Shown here one piece after another: positions 41,000 to 59,903 of a DNA stretch of 64,000 bases (within the stretch, counting starts at the first letter, position 1; every line of letters begins with the position of its first letter). Made by a program: the position numbers and the translations under genes. The stretch covers positions 1-64,000 of the forward strand of contig JALSGV010000074.1 of assembly GCA_026982565.1 (NCBI GenBank). Reading direction: 5' to 3'. The notes under the pieces are model-generated. The model had not been told where the DNA came from. It was given only the letters and a program-made list of their open reading frames with translations, and did no database searches. Origin of the DNA: Gammaproteobacteria bacterium (GTDB lineage Bacteria; Pseudomonadota; Gammaproteobacteria; SZUA-140).

Positions 41000-42274
41000 A
41001 TGAATGATCCTGTAAGTTATTTGTTTGCCTTTTTCGCGACGGTCGTGCTCATCGGCGCTTTGACGCCCTTGGCGCACAAGGTTGGCCTGATCGACCGCCC
41101 CACTGCCAGAAAAAGACATGAAGCCGACACCCCCCTCGTTGGCGGTTTGGCCATCTATATGGCCGTGGTTATCAGCATCATGATGCTCGACTACGAATTC
41201 TCTGCGTTTGCCAGTTTCTTCATTCCATCCATTCTCATCATAAGCGTCTGCCTGTGGGACGACCTGCGAGATCTTTCCTATACCATACGCTTGGCCGCAC
41301 AAGTAATTGCCGTGCTGCTGATGTGCATGCTGGGCGGCGTAATCGAGAATATTGGCATCCTCACCCCGGATGGGTCTTTATTCTACCTGGGAATACTCGC
41401 GATCCCCTTTACCATTTTCTTTTCCGTTGGACTCATCAACTCATTCAACATGTGTGACGGCATCGACGGGCTGGTCGGCGCGCTGGCCCTGATCGCCTTG
41501 ACAGGGTTCAGCGTCGCCAGCATGCATGCCGGGCGCACAGAAGAACTGCAACTCATCCTGATCCTGATGAGCGCCATCATTGCTTTCCTGGTATTCAATT
41601 TCAGAACCCCCTGGCGCAAGCGCGGCCTGGTCTTCCTGGGTGATGTAGGCAGCATGTTTATCGGATTTGCCATGCTGTGGCTTGCCATACGGCTGACCCA
41701 GGGAGAAGAAAGGGCATTGGCCCCGATTACCGCCATGTGGTTCCTTGCCTTCCCCTTGTTTGATTCTCTGAGCATCATATTGCGGCGCCTCGTGCGCAGG
41801 CGCTCGCCCTTCTCCCCGGACAGGGAGCATTTCCACCATGTCCTGCTACTGGCTGGTTTTACCGTCAACCAGTCGGTCGGCATTATTATCCTGCTGGCCA
41901 CCCTGGGCGTAGCCTTCGGCCTGACCGGTGAAGCCCTAGGCGTCCATGAGCTGGTCATGCTGTTCCTCTTTGCGTCCTTATTCGGCCTCTACTACTGGGG
42001 CATGATGCGCGCATGGAAGGTGATGCGCTTTCTCAACCGCTCTATCTGCAGAAGGGCGGGGCTCGATCGGCGCAGGAATCGCGACCGCCGCAAAAAAGTC
42101 ATCGAGGATTGGGGAGCCACCCATACGGAGCGCAGAACCGCCGGCAGCGACCGGCGCGTGAGTGACAGACGGAACACCATACATAGAAGCCCTGCCAGCG
42201 CACATCAGAGCATCGACATGCACAAGCAGGATGAGCCCCGTCCTACAAAAGTGGCCAGCAAGCTGGTTAAATAA
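41000..42274 (+). CDS. wecA: undecaprenyl-phosphate GlcNAc-1-phosphate transferase (WecA/MraY family) with basic C-terminal tail
   Basis: WecA-type enzymes start O-antigen or other surface polysaccharides by moving HexNAc-1-phosphate to undecaprenyl phosphate. The first 345 residues carry about eleven helices and the catalytic motifs: RKRHEADTPLVGG, WDDLRD (D87, D88), FNMCDGIDGL (D153, D156), FLGDVGS, and the cytoplasmic DREHFHH. Residues about 350-424 form an unusual hydrophilic tail with repeated DRR/RR groups (LDRRRNRDRRKK, ERRTAGSDRRVSDRRN) not found in E. coli WecA (367 aa). A second initiating-type sugar transferase follows 21 bp downstream. Confidence 0.9.
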   Translation: MNDPVSYLFAFFATVVLIGALTPLAHKVGLIDRPTARKRHEADTPLVGGLAIYMAVVISIMMLDYEFSAFASFFIPSILIISVCLWDDLRDLSYTIRLAAQVIAVLLMCMLGGVIENIGILTPDGSLFYLGILAIPFTIFFSVGLINSFNMCDGIDGLVGALALIALTGFSVASMHAGRTEELQLILILMSAIIAFLVFNFRTPWRKRGLVFLGDVGSMFIGFAMLWLAIRLTQGEERALAPITAMWFLAFPLFDSLSIILRRLVRRRSPFSPDREHFHHVLLLAGFTVNQSVGIIILLATLGVAFGLTGEALGVHELVMLFLFASLFGLYYWGMMRAWKVMRFLNRSICRRAGLDRRRNRDRRKKVIEDWGATHTERRTAGSDRRVSDRRNTIHRSPASAHQSIDMHKQDEPRPTKVASKLVK

Positions 42275-42295
42275 GATTGTTTTGGAGTCCCTTTA

Positions 42296-43018
42296 GTGAC
42301 AGCAATAAGCGAACCGAAAGAAGCCTTTCTTTATCAGCCACCAGATGACATCACAAAAGAAAGATACAAGAATATTTTTGCTCTTTCCCGCCCCCTGCCA
42401 TCCAGGCCACTGAAAGTCGCCTTTGATAAAGCTTTCGCCGTTACTGTTTTAACGATCGCCTCCCCTGTCATCGCTGGACTCTACTTGGCGAACCTTATCG
42501 AAGGCCTGCTGATCCCGGAAAACAAAGGGCCTTTTATTTTTTACTACAATGCCATCAGCGGGGGAAAATTATTCAAGAAATACAAGATCCGCCTCATCAA
42601 GACAAAATACATCGACCAGGAGGGCGCGAAGCGCGGTGACTGGCATGCCTATTCCGCCGAATGGACTCCGGACAGCAGAACTTATGTGGGGCGATTCGTC
42701 AAGAAATTCTACCTGGATGAACTGCCCCAGTTCTATTGCGTCCTCAAGGGAGACATGAGCATCGTGGGGCCACGCCCCCTGGCCGTCCATCATTATGAAA
42801 GAGACCTCAAACAAGGCAACGTCACCAGGAAACTGCTGAAAGGCGGTATCGTGGGAGCGGGGCATGTGCTCAAAGGAAAGCCTGAGATGGGCAATGCCGC
42901 CGTCGAATACGATTATATCGAAAAATACCTCAGCCTTTCCCAACCGGCCCTGCTGCTCATGGACATGAAAATCCTGTGGAAGGCGGTGCTGGTCTTATTT
43001 GAAGGGAAAGGTCTTTAA
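42296..43018 (+). CDS. monotopic sugar-phosphate transferase (bac_transf family)
   Basis: The 240-residue protein belongs to the monotopic phosphoglycosyl transferases (WcaJ/PglC superfamily). It has one N-terminal hydrophobic segment (about 42-65), the catalytic D-E pair in FYLDELPQF, and the block KGDMSIVGPRPL. The usual K-F-R-T-M motif after the membrane helix is altered (KKYKIRLIKTK). It starts with GTG at 42296 preceded by GGAG. Such enzymes load a sugar phosphate onto a polyprenyl carrier. Which sugar is unknown. It probably forms an operon with wecA. Confidence 0.85.
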   Translation: MTAISEPKEAFLYQPPDDITKERYKNIFALSRPLPSRPLKVAFDKAFAVTVLTIASPVIAGLYLANLIEGLLIPENKGPFIFYYNAISGGKLFKKYKIRLIKTKYIDQEGAKRGDWHAYSAEWTPDSRTYVGRFVKKFYLDELPQFYCVLKGDMSIVGPRPLAVHHYERDLKQGNVTRKLLKGGIVGAGHVLKGKPEMGNAAVEYDYIEKYLSLSQPALLLMDMKILWKAVLVLFEGKGL

Positions 43019-43038
43019 CAGACCAGGCCCGCCATCAT

Positions 43039-43788
43039 TCACTCTGGATCACCTACCGCGATTTCCCGTACAAACGGAACAGTCAAACGGCGCTGCGCAA
43101 CCTGGGATGCATAATCCAACCTGTCGAGCACGGCAAGCAATGCATGCAGATCACGGGAAAAGTGGCGCAACAGGTAGAGCGCAACCTCATCCGGCATCTG
43201 CATGCCGCGCTCCCTTGCCCATTGCTGCAGTATCCCGACCTTATGTTCATCCGCCGGTTGTTCGAGATGCAGCACCATGCCCCAGGCCAAGCGTGAGCGC
43301 AGATCCGGCAATCCAATATCCACCGCGCCGGGAGACACCCTGGCGGCAAAGATCATAAGGGCATCCTGCTCACGCAGACGATTGTACAAATGAAAGAGTC
43401 CGGTTTCCCAGTCCTCCTGACCGGCTATTCTGTCTACATCATCGATGCATACCAAGCGCATGGCCTCAAGCCCCTCAAATATTCCAGGAGCAAGCTCCGC
43501 GGCATGGGCAAGTGGAATATAGGCCGTCGCCCCCCCTCTCCCGGCTACGAAGTGACTGGCTGCCTGTAGCAAATGGGATTTTCCACAACCTCCGCCACCC
43601 CACAGATAAATACTCTGCCCTTCCTCTTGGCATACGGCCTCTCCCAGGTAATCCAAAGCCTCAATATTCCGCCCGGCGATGAAATTCCCGAAAGTTGCGG
43701 TATTTGGCAAACGAATACCCAGCGGCAACTGGATACTCACTTCCTGTCTAGCAACCACGCCAGCAGTCTCAAGCCCGGTTTCCATCAT
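43039..43788 (-). CDS. hda: DnaA regulatory inactivator Hda
   Basis: Hda, with the DNA-loaded sliding clamp, triggers hydrolysis of ATP bound to DnaA after initiation. The protein (about 249 residues from the ATG at 43786-43788) has the N-terminal clamp-binding peptide QLPL (VSIQLPLGIRL), a DnaA-like AAA+ domain with Walker A GGGGCGKSHL and Walker B LVCIDDVD, and the sensor region LPDLRSRLAWGMVL. It has no DnaA DNA-binding domain. The start is uncertain because several ATG/GTG codons are available (up to 43845) and none has a strong Shine-Dalgarno. It overlaps the end of pgsA by about 20 bp. Confidence 0.9.
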   Translation of the reverse strand: MMETGLETAGVVARQEVSIQLPLGIRLPNTATFGNFIAGRNIEALDYLGEAVCQEEGQSIYLWGGGGCGKSHLLQAASHFVAGRGGATAYIPLAHAAELAPGIFEGLEAMRLVCIDDVDRIAGQEDWETGLFHLYNRLREQDALMIFAARVSPGAVDIGLPDLRSRLAWGMVLHLEQPADEHKVGILQQWARERGMQMPDEVALYLLRHFSRDLHALLAVLDRLDYASQVAQRRLTVPFVREIAVGDPE

Positions 43789-44341
43789 TGGCGCGGCGCG
43801 CCTGACAGGCGCGCCGCCCCCAGGTCCAGACATAATCCACGCCACTCACCACTGTCGTACCCAGCACCACCAACACCAGCCAGTCCGTCAGCCATGACGG
43901 CAAGAACCCCAGCAGACTTTGTGACAAGACAACGGCAAGCCCCAGAATGATCTGGGCAAAGGTATTCACCTTGCTGATCAGGCTGGGCTCCATTGCATAC
44001 TTGCCGACGAGAAGAAAGTAAGCGGCGGCGCCGGCGACGATCAGGAGATCGCGCAAGATGACGGCCATCACCAGCCACAGGGGCAACAGCTCCAGCCACG
44101 CCAATGTAATATAGGTGCTCACCAGCAATAACTTGTCTGCTAGAGGGTCCAGGACAGAACCAAGGCGGCTGACATAGTTATAACGCTTGGCTATATAGCC
44201 ATCCAAGCCGTCCGAGATGCCAGCGACCGTATAGAGTAACAAGGCGTAGGAGAATTCCTCATGGAGCAGCAGCGTGACAATGGGCACTACCAGGAGAATG
44301 CGCAGCAGCGTAATGATATTGGGTATTTCAGCGTAGTTCAC
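43769..44341 (-). CDS. pgsA: CDP-alcohol phosphatidyltransferase, probable phosphatidylglycerophosphate synthase
   Basis: The 190-residue membrane protein has the phosphotransferase motif D47-G48-x2-A51-K52-x8-G61-x3-D65-x3-D69 and begins EIPNIITLLRILLVVPIVTLL, typical of PgsA-like enzymes. PgsA joins CDP-diacylglycerol and glycerol-3-phosphate, leading to phosphatidylglycerol and cardiolipin. The exact alcohol cannot be proved by sequence. GTG start (44339-44341) overlaps the stop of the DUF2066 gene by four bases; its own 3' end overlaps hda. Confidence 0.82.
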   Translation of the reverse strand: MNYAEIPNIITLLRILLVVPIVTLLLHEEFSYALLLYTVAGISDGLDGYIAKRYNYVSRLGSVLDPLADKLLLVSTYITLAWLELLPLWLVMAVILRDLLIVAGAAAYFLLVGKYAMEPSLISKVNTFAQIILGLAVVLSQSLLGFLPSWLTDWLVLVVLGTTVVSGVDYVWTWGRRACQARRANDGNRA

Positions 44342-51546: not shown

Positions 51547-52128
51547 ATGACTGAATACCTGCTGGTCCTGGTGAGCACCGTCCTGGTCAACAACTTCGTA
51601 CTGACCAAGTTTCTTGGACTGTGCCCCTTCATGGGCGTCTCGCGCAAGCTGGAGACAGCCACGGGCATGGCGCTGGCCACCACCTTCGTACTGACCCTCT
51701 CCTCCGTGGCCAGTTACCTGGCCAACACCTACCTGCTGGCGCCTCTGGGCCTGGAGTACCTGCGCACCATCACTTTCATCCTGGTCATCGCCGCGGTGGT
51801 GCAATTCACGGAAATGGTGATCCACAAGACCAGCCCCCTGCTCTACCAGGTGCTGGGCATTTTCCTGCCCCTTATCACCACCAACTGTGCCGTGTTGGGC
51901 GTGGCCCTGCTGATCGTGCAACAAGAGACCGGCTTTCTTTATGCCGCCCTGTATGGCTTCGGCGCCGCCGCCGGTTTTTCCATGGTATTGATCCTGTTTG
52001 CCGCCATGCGCGAACGCATTACCGTGGCCGATGTCCCCGTCCCGTTCCGCGGCCCGGCCATCGCCCTGGTGACGGCGGGCCTGATGTCACTGGCGTTCAT
52101 GGGCTTCTCGGGCCTGGTAAAAGGTTAG
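51547..52128 (+). CDS. rnfA: Rnf electron transport complex subunit A
   Basis: RnfA is an integral subunit (six helices) of the Rnf ion-translocating ferredoxin:NAD+ oxidoreductase, known as Rsx in E. coli. The 193-residue protein begins [20 protein letters not shown], followed by [11 protein letters not shown], which is diagnostic, and has the second Cys-containing half-repeat TTNCAVLG that helps hold the membrane [2Fe-2S] centre. It is the first gene of the six-gene rnfABCDGE operon. It follows metG by 117 bp. Confidence 0.97.
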
Positions 52129-52132
52129 TCTC

Positions 52133-52684
52133 ATGCTGGCCGCGATCATGGTATTAAGCGCCCTGGCCGTCATCTTCGGCCTGTTGCTGGGCTTCGCCGC
52201 CGTCCGCTTCAAGGTGGAAGGGGATCCCCTGGTGGACAAGATCGACGCCCAACTGCCTCAGACCCAGTGCGGCCAGTGCAGCTATCCCGGCTGCCGTCCC
52301 TATGCCGAGGCCATCGCCAAGGGCGAGGCGGACATCAATCAGTGCCCGCCGGGCGGCGAAACCACCATCATGGCCCTCGCCGACCTGCTGGACCGCGACC
52401 CCAAACCGCTCAACCCGGAGAATGGCGTGCCCCAGGAAAAGACCGTCGCCGTCATCGACGAGAGCCGTTGCATTGGCTGCACCCTGTGCATACAGGCCTG
52501 CCCCGTGGATGCCATCCTCGGGGCCGCCAAGCACATGCATACGGTGATCGCCAGTGAATGCACGGGCTGCGATCTGTGCGTCGAACCCTGCCCCGTCGAC
52601 TGCATCGACATGGCGCCCATCGAACAGGACATTCTGACCTGGAAATGGCCTTACCCTGAGAACCGACTGGAGAAGGCCTCGTGA
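52133..52684 (+). CDS. rnfB: Rnf complex subunit B (iron-sulfur)
   Basis: RnfB receives electrons from ferredoxin. The 183-residue protein has an N-terminal membrane helix, a [4Fe-4S] domain of the C-x2-C-x4-C type ([10 protein letters not shown] plus the later CPPGG), and an 8Fe ferredoxin domain with [16 protein letters not shown] and [16 protein letters not shown]. It starts 4 bp after rnfA and overlaps the rnfC start by four bases. Confidence 0.97.
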
Positions 52685-54336
52685 GCCGGGAAACCGGCGC
52701 CACACGCCGCCTGTGGAAATTCCACGGCGGCGTCCATCCCCCGCAGCACAAGGAAATCTCCACCACGCTGCCGGTGAGTGCGGCGCGCATGCCCGCGCGC
52801 CTTGTGCTCCCCCTGCACCAGCACATTGGCGAGCCTGCGGAGCCCACCGTCGCAAAAGGGGAAAAAGTATTGAAGGGGCAGATGATCGCACGCCCGCAGG
52901 GCTACGTCAGCGCCCCCGTCCATGCCCCCACCTCCGGCACCATCGCCGATATCGGAGACTATCCGGTCCCCCACCCCTCCGGGCTGAGCGCCGCCTGCAT
53001 GGTCATCGAGCCCGACGGCGAAGAGTGCTGGATGGAACGCCAGCCCATAGAAGACTATACGACCCTCCCTCCCAGCGAACTGCGCAACCTGATCCGCGAG
53101 GCGGGCATCGTCGGCCTGGGCGGCGCCGGTTTTCCCGCCTACATCAAGTACAACCCCGGCCATCAAAAGGCCATTCAGACCCTGATCCTCAACGGCGTGG
53201 AGTGCGAGCCCTTCATCACCTGTGACGACATGCTGATGCGCGAGGCGCCCGGGGACATCATCGGCGGTCTGCGCGTCATCCAGCATGCCCTGCAGGCCCG
53301 GGAGTGCCTCATCGCCATCGAGGACAACAAACCGCAGGCCATTGCCGCCTTGCGCCAGGCCGTGGCCGGATATGATGACATCGAGGTCGTGGAGGTGCCC
53401 ACCCTGTACCCCCAGGGCAGTGAAAAACAATTGATCAAGGTGCTGACGGGCAAGGAAGTGCCGGCCGACGGCCTGGCGCTGAACATCGGCGTGGTGTGCG
53501 CCAACGTGGGCACGGCCGCCGCCGTGCATCGCGCCATCAATCGCGGCGAACCACTCATATCCCGTTACGTCACCATCACGGGCAGCGCCGTGGGCGCGCC
53601 ACGCAACCTGGATGTGCTGCTGGGCACCCCCATGCGCGATCTCATCGAGGAGTGCGATGGCGACCTCGGCCGCATCGAGCGCCTCATCATGGGCGGCCCC
53701 ATGATGGGCTTCGCCCTGCATCGCCACGACCTGCCGGTCATCAAGACCACCAATTGCATTCTGGCGGCAACGGCCAAGGACCTGCCGCCCCAACGCCCGG
53801 AGCTGCCATGCATACGCTGCGGCGCCTGTGCCGACGTATGCCCGGTCAATCTGCTGCCGCAACAGCTCTACTGGTACAGCAAGCACCACAATCTCGACAA
53901 GGTGCAGGAATATGACCTGTTCGACTGCATCGAATGCGGCTGCTGTTCCTATGTGTGCCCCAGCAACATTCCCCTGGTGCAGTATTTCCGTTATGCAAAA
54001 GGCGATATCTGGACCCAGGAGCGGGAGAAGGAAAAATCGGATATCGCGCGCCGCCGCCATGAATTCCGCCAACTCCGGATCGAGCGCGAAAAGGCGGAGC
54101 GCCTGGCCAAACGCAACAGGAAAAAGTCCGCCCTCAAGGCAGATACCGCCATGGCGGAGAGAGACAAGAAAAAGGCGGAAATTCAGGCGGCAATCGCCCG
54201 CACCCAGGCCCGCCGCCAGGCGGCCATGAAAGAAGCCGAAAAACGCCGCAAATCCTTTGGCAAGGAAGCGCGCGGCCCCATGGACGAAACGCCCCAACAA
54301 CCGGATAATGCATCCGATAACGAACGAAAAGAATAA
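52681..54336 (+). CDS. rnfC: Rnf complex subunit C
   Basis: RnfC is the peripheral NADH/FMN-binding subunit. The 551-residue protein has the N-terminal region [12 protein letters not shown], a Complex I 51-kDa-like fold with [13 protein letters not shown], and two [4Fe-4S] motifs, [17 protein letters not shown] and [17 protein letters not shown]. After about residue 440 comes a highly charged Lys/Arg/Glu-rich coiled coil, common in gammaproteobacterial RnfC. The start is GTG overlapping the rnfB stop (GTGA). Confidence 0.97.
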
Positions 54337-54389
54337 ATGCGATTCTTCAATGAGCCTCTGAACGCCGCCCACGGGACGACCATGACGCC

Positions 54390-55466
54390 ATGACCTTGCC
54401 TCCTCCCACATCACCGCACGCCCAGGCGGCAAGCTCTGTCACGCGCACCATGCTGCGCGTCATGATTGCCCTGATTCCCGGGCTCGCCGCCTACATCTGG
54501 TTCTTCGGCTGGGGCATCACTGTCAATATCGCCTTTGCCGTAACCGTTGCTGTCGCTGCAGAGGCCGTCATGCTGTCGCTGCGCAAGCGCCCCATCCTGC
54601 CTTTTCTCAGCGACTGCAGCGCCATCGTCACCGCCATCCTGCTCGCCTTCGCCATTCCGCCCCTGGCGCCCTGGTGGGTCACTTTTATCGGCGTCCTGTT
54701 TGCCATCATCATCGCCAAGCACCTCTATGGCGGCCTGGGATACAATCCTTTCAATCCCGCCATGGTGGGCTACGTCGTACTGCTGATCTCTTTCCCCCGG
54801 GAGATGACCAGCTGGATTCCCACACTCAACTTTTTACCTCAAGAACTCAGTTTCGCGCAACACGCCGCCTTCATCTTCACCGGACAACTGCCCGCGGGGC
54901 TGACCATCGACGCATTGACCGAGGCCACCCCCCTTGACACCCTCAAGACCAACCTGGGGCTGGGCAACACCGTCAGCGAGATCAAATCCCAGCTCGGACT
55001 GGACGAGGCCACCAGCATGCTGTTGAGCGTCATTCCCATCTTCGGCCTCTTTGGCGGCAAGGGCTGGGAATGGATCAACGTGGGCTTCCTGCTGGGCGGC
55101 CTGTGGCTGATTTACAAGAAGGTCATCGGCTGGCAGATTCCGGTTGCCCTGCTGGGTTCGCTGAGCGCCATGTCGGTCCTGTTCTATATTTTCAATCCGG
55201 ACCAGTATGCCTCGCCGGCCTTTCACCTCTTCAGCGGCGCCACCATGCTCGCGGCCTTCTTCATCGCCACGGATCCGGTGACGGCGGCCACCAGCCCCAC
55301 CGGGCGCCTGATTTATGGTGCGGGCATCGGCATCCTCATGTATATCATCCGCGCCTGGGGCGGCTATCCCGACAGTGTGGCCTTTGCCGTGCTGTTGATG
55401 AACATGACGGTTCCCATTATCGACTATTACTTCAAGCCCCGCGTCTTCGGACGTAATGGAGACTAG
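54390..55466 (+). CDS. rnfD: Rnf complex subunit D
   Basis: RnfD is a NqrB-like membrane subunit of 358 residues with about nine helices. It carries the covalent-FMN motif S-G-A-T (FHLFSGATML) and an FNPAMVGY segment after GLGYNP. It contributes to the ion pathway of the complex. It starts 53 bp after rnfC and overlaps rnfG by 11 bp. Confidence 0.96.
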   Translation: MTLPPPTSPHAQAASSVTRTMLRVMIALIPGLAAYIWFFGWGITVNIAFAVTVAVAAEAVMLSLRKRPILPFLSDCSAIVTAILLAFAIPPLAPWWVTFIGVLFAIIIAKHLYGGLGYNPFNPAMVGYVVLLISFPREMTSWIPTLNFLPQELSFAQHAAFIFTGQLPAGLTIDALTEATPLDTLKTNLGLGNTVSEIKSQLGLDEATSMLLSVIPIFGLFGGKGWEWINVGFLLGGLWLIYKKVIGWQIPVALLGSLSAMSVLFYIFNPDQYASPAFHLFSGATMLAAFFIATDPVTAATSPTGRLIYGAGIGILMYIIRAWGGYPDSVAFAVLLMNMTVPIIDYYFKPRVFGRNGD

Positions 55467-56124
55467 CGTGGTGCTGATCCGCCACATGCTCGTCACGGCC
55501 CTCCTGTTGGGTGTATTCGCAGTGCTGGGTACGGGCATGGTGGCGCTGACCCATCACAATACAGAAGAACGTATCGAACAGAATGAGCGTGACTATCTGC
55601 AGCGCACCCTGAATACCCTGATACCACCTTCTGAGTATGACAATGTGCTCTATGAGGACACGATCACCGTGGAGTCCCGCGAACTGCTGGGATCCAAAAA
55701 ACCCGTCGTCATCTATCGCGCGCGCAAGAACGGCAAACCCGTGGCGGCCATTCTCACCCCCGTCGCCCCCGACGGCTACAGCGGCAACATCAAACTGTTG
55801 GTGGCCATTCGCCACAATGGCGAAATCATGGGGGTGCGCGTGGTCTCCCACCTGGAAACCCCCGGCCTGGGTGATGGCATCGATATCGCCAAATCGGACT
55901 GGATCAAGAGCTTCAATGGCCATTCCCTGGACAACCCGGATGAACTGGGCTGGCGCGTGGAGAAGGACGGCGGCATCTTCGATCAGTTCACCGGCGCCAC
56001 CATTTCACCGCGCGCGGTGGTCAAGGCCGTCTATAACAGTCTAAAATATTACCAGCAGCACCGGGACGAGATCTTCGGCCTTCCCGAGCAACCACAAAAG
56101 GAACCATCCCATGGCGCAGCATGA
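55456..56124 (+). CDS. rnfG: Rnf complex subunit G
   Basis: RnfG is a NqrC-like subunit with one N-terminal helix and a periplasmic FMN-binding domain. The 222-residue protein has the flavinylation motif TGATIS in [14 protein letters not shown], where the threonine takes the FMN. It overlaps both rnfD (11 bp) and rnfE (14 bp), so the operon is tightly coupled. A GTG at 55468 is an alternative start. Confidence 0.96.
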
Positions 56125-56806
56125 CTATTCCGAGATCACCCGGCAGGGGCTGTGGAAAAACAACCCAGCCCTGGTGCAGATACTTGGCCTGTGCCCCCTG
56201 CTGGCCGTCACCAGCACGGTCGTCAACGGCCTTGCCCTGGGCCTCGCCACCCTGCTGACCCTGATCCTTTCCAATGTGACGGTCTCCCTGATACGCCATT
56301 ATGTCTCGCCGGAGATCCGTATTCCCGTATTCGTCCTGGTCATCGCCTCAATCGTGACGGTCATCGAACTGGCCATGCACGCCTATTTCCACGAACTCTA
56401 CCTGATCCTCGGCATATTCATCCCCCTCATCGTCACCAATTGCAGCATCATTGCCCGCGCCGAGGCCTACGCCTCGAAGAACCCCGTCGGCCCGGCCTTC
56501 GTCGACGGCCTGATGATGGGGATAGGCTTTGCCGCCGTACTCATCGTGCTGGGCGGAATGCGTGAAGTCCTGGGCCAGGGCACCCTGTTTGCCAACGCCC
56601 ACCTGCTGCTGGGCGAAATGGCGCGCGGATTCGAGGTCATCGTTATCGAGGACTACCGGGGATTTCTCCTCGCCATTCTGCCGCCCGGCGCCTTTATCGG
56701 CCTGGGACTGCTGATCGCCCTCAAGAACGTCATCGACAGCCGCCAGGAGAAACGGCTACAGACGGCGCCCGCCGTATCCACCGAGGCCACGGCAGGCACC
56801 GCCTGA
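56111..56806 (+). CDS. rnfE: Rnf complex subunit E
   Basis: RnfE is the RnfA-like six-helix membrane subunit (231 residues). It has the half-repeats [18 protein letters not shown] and [18 protein letters not shown], whose cysteines share the intramembrane iron-sulfur centre with RnfA. It closes the rnfABCDGE operon; nth follows after 15 bp, the same as in E. coli. Confidence 0.96.
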
Positions 56807-58253: not shown

Positions 58254-58269
58254 TGGCACGCAACCTGCA
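58254..58269 (+). promoter_or_regulatory. sigma-54 promoter of the Cyc2-like gene
   Basis: TGGCACGCAACCTGCA has the GG and GC dinucleotides separated by exactly 10 bp and matches the consensus TGGCACG-N4-TTGCA at all but one position. It would start transcription near 58280, some 33 bases before the ATG at 58313. The upstream arms CGGCAAA (58141-58147) and TTTGCCG (58177-58183) may be an activator site. Confidence 0.75.
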
Positions 58270-58312
58270 TCCTCCTTAGCGCATCAGTTTTTTCTTACAT
58301 GAGGAAGAGATA

Positions 58313-59833
58313 ATGATTACTACAGGTAGTAAGGGACGAATGTTCAAATGGAAACCTGTCAGGCTGATGACCATGATTCCCATGGCGCTGGTCGTGACGT
58401 TTCTGATCCAAATCGGTGATGCCAATGCCATCCCGGCATTTGCAAGGAAATACCAGGCCAACTGCGCCCTGTGTCATACCAACGAGCCGCGCCTGACCGT
58501 ATTCGGCCAGCAATTCAAGGAAAACGGCTACCAGATGCCAGGAAGCACGGACGGCGGCGAAACAGCCAAGGATATCCTGGAAGGCGCCCAAGGCCCCGTC
58601 AGCGTCGACAAGATATCCAATATCATGGCTGTGCGCATCCGCGCGGACGTCCAACGCGTCTCCTTCGAGGAAGTGACGGATGAGATGAAGGACGAGAACG
58701 TGCGCGAGCAATGGGACGTCGATGTGCCCCGCATCGTCAACCTGTTCTTTGGCGGCACGGCCACCAAGAACCTCAGCTATTTCATGGAAACCGAGTTCAA
58801 TACCCAGGAAGGCGGTGACCCGGCGGTCAAGTTCGAGCGCACCTTTTTGATCTTCTCCAACCTGGGCGGCAAGCAGGGCATTGCCAACCTGAAGGTCGGT
58901 AAATTCGACCCCTCGGGGCTGTTCTCTTTTCCGACCCACCGCCAGCAGATCAACCCGGTGGGGCCGGTTGCCGAAGCCAGCAATTTCCCGCCAACCATCA
59001 ACAGGGTCCCCCTGCTCCCGTTGGCCTTCGCCAGCAAGATGTTCGGACTGACAAAAGGCCCGAGTTACGAGGGCAATGAAGACTACGCCCTGCTGCCGGT
59101 GCAGCCCTATCTTTACAACGCGCCGGTACAGACCAGCGTCTCCCTCTACGGCCGGCCCTTGGGCTTTGGCAGCCCCTTCATGTACCAGATCGGCGTTGCG
59201 GTCAACGACAAGGTCAGCACATCCGCGCAGGACAAGGAAAACCGCTACGACACCTACGTCATGGGCCGCTACGACTGGACCATGCTGGGCGGCAAGGCCT
59301 TCCAGGCTTCCGCCTTCTATTACCAGGCGCCTGACGCCGCCATCTCCACCCTCAATATGAGTGGAAATATCGTCTACGCCAGCAAGGCCACGGGCATCAC
59401 CCGTTACGGCTTCGGCGCCCGCGGCACCTGGGGCCAGTGGGACATCTACGGCACCTACATCGTCGACAAAATCGACGAGCCCACTTTCTCGGGCATGGCG
59501 GCCAATTCGGTGTGGGAGGATACGGGCAAGGGCATGAGCCTGGAAGCCGACTGGCGCATGAACGACCACTGGATGCTGGGGCTGCGCTACGACTGGATGG
59601 CGCCCGGTGGCCTGAAGCAATTGCCCATGGGCAGCACGGAGCAGTTGAATATCGATGCTTCATTCCTGGCGCCCATCGTCAAGTACTATCCCCGTCCCAA
59701 TATCGGGCTCTATGCGCGCGCCCACTTCAATCTTGAAGACAGCGCCAAGAATCCCATCGGCGGCGGCACGGCGGAACACCCGCTGACCAACCTGACGAAC
59801 CTGGTTTCGCTGGGCGTGGATATGGCCTTCTGA
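58313..59833 (+). CDS. Cyc2-like outer-membrane monoheme cytochrome-porin
   Basis: The 506-residue precursor has a signal peptide ending near A39 (IGDANA), then IPAFARKYQANCALCHTNEP with one heme c site (C51, C54, H55), followed by RLTVFGQQFKENGYQM. The rest is a long beta-strand-rich region with alternating aromatic residues (VSLYGRPLGFG; YGFGARGTWGQWDIYGTYIV; WMLGLRYDWM) ending in DMAF, a typical outer-membrane barrel C-terminus. This is the layout of Cyc2, the fused cytochrome-porin of iron oxidisers, and of related proteins in other lithotrophs. A role in electron exchange across the outer membrane is inferred. It has AGGAAGAG before the ATG, a sigma-54 promoter and its own terminator. 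Confidence 0.78.
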   Translation: MITTGSKGRMFKWKPVRLMTMIPMALVVTFLIQIGDANAIPAFARKYQANCALCHTNEPRLTVFGQQFKENGYQMPGSTDGGETAKDILEGAQGPVSVDKISNIMAVRIRADVQRVSFEEVTDEMKDENVREQWDVDVPRIVNLFFGGTATKNLSYFMETEFNTQEGGDPAVKFERTFLIFSNLGGKQGIANLKVGKFDPSGLFSFPTHRQQINPVGPVAEASNFPPTINRVPLLPLAFASKMFGLTKGPSYEGNEDYALLPVQPYLYNAPVQTSVSLYGRPLGFGSPFMYQIGVAVNDKVSTSAQDKENRYDTYVMGRYDWTMLGGKAFQASAFYYQAPDAAISTLNMSGNIVYASKATGITRYGFGARGTWGQWDIYGTYIVDKIDEPTFSGMAANSVWEDTGKGMSLEADWRMNDHWMLGLRYDWMAPGGLKQLPMGSTEQLNIDASFLAPIVKYYPRPNIGLYARAHFNLEDSAKNPIGGGTAEHPLTNLTNLVSLGVDMAF

Positions 59834-59864
59834 CAAACAGCATTTCACTCGCCTGCAAACCTGG

Positions 59865-59903
59865 GGGCGGTTACAGCATCAGCCGTGACCGCCCTTTCTT
59901 TTC
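59865..59903 (+). terminator. intrinsic terminator after the Cyc2-like gene
   Basis: Arms GGGCGGTTAC (59865-59874) and GTGACCGCCC (59885-59894), with one wobble pair and a 10-base loop, are followed by TTTCTTTTC. It starts 32 bp after the stop and makes the gene a single transcription unit. Confidence 0.8.

Follow-up and report, generated by a model that had tools for sequence, protein, structure and literature searches.

The 64,000-nucleotide stretch of DNA analysed here, hereafter the window, harbours a gene whose product is probably a Cyc2-type protein for electron uptake at the outer membrane, orthologous to the Cyc2 homologue of 'Candidatus Tenderia electrophaga' and driven by sigma-54 (Table 1). 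The open reading frame can be taken as a real gene, since orthologues are found in other genomes at 85, 77 and 51% identity. The protein itself is of a known kind; the putative sigma-54 promoter is the new element, and sigma-54 is not mentioned in any of the cyc2 papers that our literature search listed.

Table 1. Features of the cytochrome-porin locus (window coordinates) and the basis of each assignment
Feature	Coordinates	Strand	Basis and remarks
Sigma-54-type -24/-12 promoter (putative), TGGCACGCAACCTGCA	58254..58269	+	GG 58255-58256, GC 58267-58268; sequence, shuffles, conserved in the two nearest orthologues
Ribosome-binding site, GAGGAAGAG	58301..58309	+	3 nt 5' of the ATG; read from the sequence
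Cytochrome-porin gene	58313..59833	+	ORF of 506 aa; orthologue of the putative Tenderia cyc2
Signal peptide, residues 1-39	58313..58429	+	Likely cleavage between ANA and IPAF; inferred from sequence and alignment
Monoheme domain, residues 40-103	58430..58621	+	Sequence and alignment; low confidence in the model
CxxCH (C51, C54, H55)	58463-58477	+	Within the monoheme domain; Cyc2 motif AIPAFARKY and PRL
Predicted 16-strand outer-membrane beta-barrel, residues 105-506, C-terminal F	58625..59830	+	AlphaFold2 model; Foldseek matches OmpF, OmpT, OprP, OprO
Intrinsic terminator, GGGCGGTTAC/GTGACCGCCC stem then TTTCTTTTC	59865..59903	+	Fold; stem 59865-59894 plus T run

According to Keffer et al. (PMC8406198), a Cyc2 protein is at least 365 aa long, contains a porin and shows the motifs AXPXFAR[Q/K][T/Y], CXXCH and PXL, and we used the same signatures. 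In the window protein the first motif precedes a single CXXCH, which PXL follows closely, the heme-domain stretch reading AIPAFARKY-QAN-CALCH-TNE-PRL-TVFGQQFKENGY (also written AIPAFARKY-QAN-CALCH-TNE-PRL-TVFGQQFKENGYQMPG); P59 and L61 are unchanged across the 21 rows of the alignment. Its 506 aa include a signal peptide judged by eye. An AlphaFold2 model built from 21 sequences (mean pLDDT 70.7, pTM 0.75) comprises a helical N-terminal domain followed by 16 long strands, and Foldseek searches with this model rank general bacterial porins first, among them OprP and OprO, which the Cyc2 authors used as structural homologues of Cyc2. The layout proposed in the preliminary description, a monoheme CxxCH domain fused to a barrel ending in F, is thus supported by the motif, the strand prediction and the C-terminus (...GVDMAF), and the 16-strand barrel suggested there for checking is found in a model whose heme domain is of low confidence, with pLDDT below 50 in parts. 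Sequence searches of Pfam, NCBIfam and the PDB gave no usable family match and none that names the protein, as expected for a porin whose sequence is poorly conserved.

The window protein shares its signal peptide, AXPXFAR[QK][TY], CXXCH, PXL and 16-strand porin with Cyc2 of Mariprofundus ferrooxydans PV-1 and Acidithiobacillus ferrooxidans and with Cyt572 of Leptospirillum (PMC8406198). Unlike Cyc2 relatives encoded in the same family of bacteria (L015, L018), it does not have a segment of the FQHFPALN type, and it stands well apart from these HFPALN-type proteins in the tree. An outer-membrane electron conduit is common to Cyc2, MtoAB/PioAB and the multiheme (MHCR) systems; whereas in the latter two the large barrel houses a cytochrome with many hemes, the window protein has one heme domain fused to a small barrel.

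The gene is present in 3 of the 20 genomes of the window's order. A draw of 369 genomes across the class yielded matches, besides the window's own, in G259 (71%), G369 (60%), G215 (56%) and G054 (51%), and named loci were found in SZUA-140 (85%), S012_109 (about 76%) and 'Ca. Tenderia sp.' BWSM_60 (68%), with others in Chromatiales, 'Ca. Kutchimonas' and Nitrospirota. The tree places the window protein in a six-row gammaproteobacterial clade (100/100), which lies within a larger clade (99/97) that also comprises Chromatiales, Gemmatimonadota and a single Nitrospirota row; a Nitrospirales group comes next (100/99). Other cytochrome-porins occur in these genomes. The window genome encodes a second, distant one of 431 aa (L022; G000:C63:2266-2838, - strand; FARKYNLSCVACHAAFPRLNEFGQNF), with relatives in G016 and G054, and a third type of 396 aa is found in relatives (L012, L014, L020), where an apparent small cytochrome c gene ends just upstream.

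The orthologue in G259, at C1:752265, is 67% identical to the window protein by BLAST and 71% by the genome search. Between 3.6015 and 3.6102 Mb, the 3.66-Mb chromosome of G259 carries genes for two triheme proteins, a 506-aa protein, another triheme protein, two ORFs (461 aa and 376 aa) and an 11-heme protein. 'Ca. T. electrophaga' has been described with triheme cytochromes Tel_16515, 16520 and 16530, the TPR gene Tel_16525 and the undecaheme Tel_16545 (PMC5371394), and the G259 cluster has the same order and count as Tel_16515 to Tel_16545. With locus tags rising in steps of five, Tel_16545 corresponds to about gene 3309 at 3.607 Mb, or 1.09 kb per gene, and the same arithmetic puts Tel_03480 (gene 696) near 759 kb, the G259 orthologue being at 752 kb. 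As the cytochrome gene order and the arithmetic agree, G259 almost certainly represents 'Ca. T. electrophaga' itself or a near twin of it, its orthologue being the published cyc2. Tel_03480 is reported as cyc2, and its transcript rises at the less favourable cathode potential, expression being higher at 470 mV than at 310 mV (PMC5371394). The presumed Tel_03480 and the window protein have the same layout and 67-71% identity over the mature protein. In both cases no cytochrome gene is adjacent and the genome encodes an undecaheme cytochrome; in contrast to the window gene, the G259 orthologue has no -24/-12 site upstream and has other flanking genes, and it belongs to a different family.

The neighbours of the cytochrome-porin gene in the window code for Rnf subunits, an HhH-GPD DNA-repair protein, DUF1841, a gamma-glutamyl cyclotransferase and an M48 peptidase. 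The Rnf (Rsx) genes form a run upstream (window 51547-56806) that, together with the DUF1841 and HhH-GPD genes, looks like ordinary gene order; a functional link between them and the cytochrome-porin was dropped, as it amounted to adjacency only. The terminator stem (z = -3.3) agrees with the earlier reading of a monocistronic unit, and stems of differing sequence follow both nearest orthologues (L024, L025). That no cytochrome or oxidase gene lies near the gene in the window, as originally noted, holds, but this does not set the locus apart as was then thought: none of the nine Tenderia-type copies examined has an adjacent cytochrome gene, and a stand-alone cyc2 has been published for Acidithiobacillus (PMC10654088).

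A different arrangement characterises the sister clade in Chromatiales, Gemmatimonadota and Nitrospirota (L030-L039). A diheme cytochrome c gene lies directly downstream (0-56 nt) in 9/9 of these loci and in 0/9 Tenderia-type loci, the window gene included among the latter. The operon is conserved (L030:9977-17389, L031:9902-16485, L032, L033-L039): beyond the cytochrome-porin and the diheme cytochrome c genes, several loci code for a CarboxypepD_reg-like secreted protein, and there follows a cbb3-like oxidase, as COX1 and FixO subunits (L030, L031), or a sensor kinase, in some cases with a response regulator (Nitrospirales). The operonic cytochrome-porins and the window protein belong to one well-supported clade (100/99) at 32-51% identity, but, unlike the window gene, the operonic genes have the diheme cytochrome next door and are without the sigma-54 site. 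In the window genome, the 240-aa secreted protein of the sister clade has no match and its diheme cytochrome only remote ones, so the window lineage must use other partners.

Candidates for this role are encoded elsewhere in the genome. On contig C146 lie genes for a cbb3-like oxidase, its small subunits and a c-type cytochrome with two hemes. C153 encodes an undecaheme cytochrome at 67 and 61% identity, as well as cytochromes with two, three and five hemes and a sensor kinase, which have relatives in the G259 cluster; these include relatives of MHCR-type cytochromes. The multiheme set on C153, akin to the electron-uptake cluster of Tenderia (L070:8227-11190; contig 41708-44296), shares the contig with RuBisCO. 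The search for periplasmic cytochromes elsewhere in the genome, recommended in the preliminary description, was fruitful, and the electron-transfer context is less obscure than stated there, given an orthologue that is presumably Tel_03480 and, on other contigs, possible partners among periplasmic proteins and oxidases. The combination of RuBisCO, oxidase and multiheme set fits a chemolitho- or electroautotroph. Hou et al. (PMC7329443) reported genes close to the cyc2 of Tenderia in Gammaproteobacteria of a vent chimney that had recently become extinct, and the nearest relatives of the window organism suggest that it may have come from such a place.

The mechanism that we favour would be as follows. 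The 16-strand barrel would span the outer membrane and carry the single-heme domain at its mouth on the periplasmic side, where the heme, presumably bound at the CxxCH, would be reduced by an external donor, which may be dissolved Fe(II), iron from a metal sulphide or an electrode. Electrons would then pass to soluble periplasmic c-type cytochromes and on to the cbb3-like oxidase, and reverse flow would feed carbon fixation. Expression would be turned on by the sigma-54 RNA polymerase.

Alternatively, the protein might be a Cyc2-family cytochrome-porin with another job, such as electron export, uptake from a donor other than iron (reduced sulphur, manganese) or solute transport gated by the redox state of the heme. 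The Cyc2 authors themselves caution that distant Cyc2 homologues are perhaps not iron oxidases, and the barrel is similar to those of porins for solutes. Besides the His of CxxCH, no histidine or methionine is unchanged throughout the wider clade, which leaves the heme ligands uncertain: Met75 is the best candidate for the distal ligand in the window protein, but residue 75 varies within the clade and no alternative stands out. The second cytochrome-porin of the genome also suggests specialised copies. However, the closest studied orthologue, by inference Tel_03480, is tied to cathodic uptake, and in the sister-clade operons the porin gene is accompanied by one for a diheme cytochrome and, at two loci, by one for a terminal oxidase, which speaks for an inward flow of electrons in this clade. 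We therefore regard a different job as rather unlikely, and electron uptake as the better reading.

As for expression, the -24/-12 site, some 59 nt upstream (-59), reads TGGCACG-CAAC-CTGCA and agrees with the consensus at 11 of 12 informative positions. The two nearest orthologues have TGGCACATAATCTGCA at -63 and TGGCGCATTATCTGCA at -70, the surrounding upstream DNA having diverged, so that correctly spaced GG/GC elements are conserved in all three orthologues of the window's order. In dinucleotide shuffles such a site arises in 0.03-0.15% of cases (about 0.0003-0.0015 per upstream region). A scan of the 64 kb with two mismatches allowed gave no more matches than in shuffles, which leaves the pattern alone within chance, and we therefore relied on the position of the site and on its conservation. 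These, together with the low shuffle frequency, make the site credible, and with rpoN present in the genome the near-perfect sigma-54 promoter originally proposed for the cytochrome-porin gene is plausible; its transcript would be expected to start near 58280.

It could be argued that the -24/-12 sequence arose by chance and that an unrecognised promoter, of the sigma-70 or another type, drives the gene, as two-mismatch patterns are no commoner in the window than in shuffles and orthologues outside the order are without the -24/-12 site. Against this, the three orthologues of the order share the site at -59, -63 and -70 in diverged DNA, at a shuffle frequency of about 0.001 each, and the + strand of the region contains no sigma-70-like site. 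Genome-wide, the strict sigma-54 pattern has seven matches versus one for a reversed control. Two of the seven are clear promoters before genes, namely the cytochrome-porin gene and pilA; one precedes a ribonucleotide-reductase-like gene at a distance of 319 nt, and the remaining four are inside or overlap other open frames. A chance origin appears improbable to us, and we retain the sigma-54 promoter.

Expression from sigma-54 needs an enhancer-binding protein, not just a housekeeping promoter. The search for sigma-54 activators that had been proposed turned up rpoN and five strong enhancer-binding proteins, assigned by gene context to a flagellar pair, NtrC (with glnA/ntrB), PilR (with pilA) and NtrX (with ntrY). 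All five lie in such ordinary contexts, and no dedicated activator gene for the cytochrome-porin was found among them. For this reason, the earlier suggestion that sigma-54 control reflects a response to a specific signal stays a guess.

The pilA promoter TGGCATGCAACATGCA (L074, G000:C42:78993-79009, - strand) is nearly identical to TGGCACGCAACCTGCA, including the GCAAC spacer, and the cell thus seems to use the same type of switch for its type IV pilin gene. It is tempting to speculate that PilS/PilR regulates the cytochrome-porin gene together with type IV pili, surface attachment switching on electron uptake, which would refine the preferred explanation rather than replace it. These two genes are those with strict sites close upstream, pilR and pilS adjoin pilA, and an RpoN regulon that includes electron-transfer genes has reportedly been described for Geobacter. 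Nevertheless, similarity between core promoters does not name the activator, NtrC, NtrX and the flagellar activators are also present, and the upstream regions of the orthologues share no 7-9 base words that might mark an activator site. PilR control is thus an attractive, testable guess drawn from one promoter resemblance, and we give it a low probability.

Our analysis extends a group with one member probably linked to life on a cathode to an autotroph with a multiheme uptake cytochrome. The contrast between stand-alone and operonic loci names a candidate path for this Cyc2 branch, from the diheme cytochrome to the cbb3-like oxidase. With the sigma-54 promoter, the regulation of the gene becomes testable. 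Should the electron-uptake protein of this lineage be under sigma-54, and possibly PilR, contact with a mineral surface might switch on uptake, although we hold this last scenario to be doubtful.
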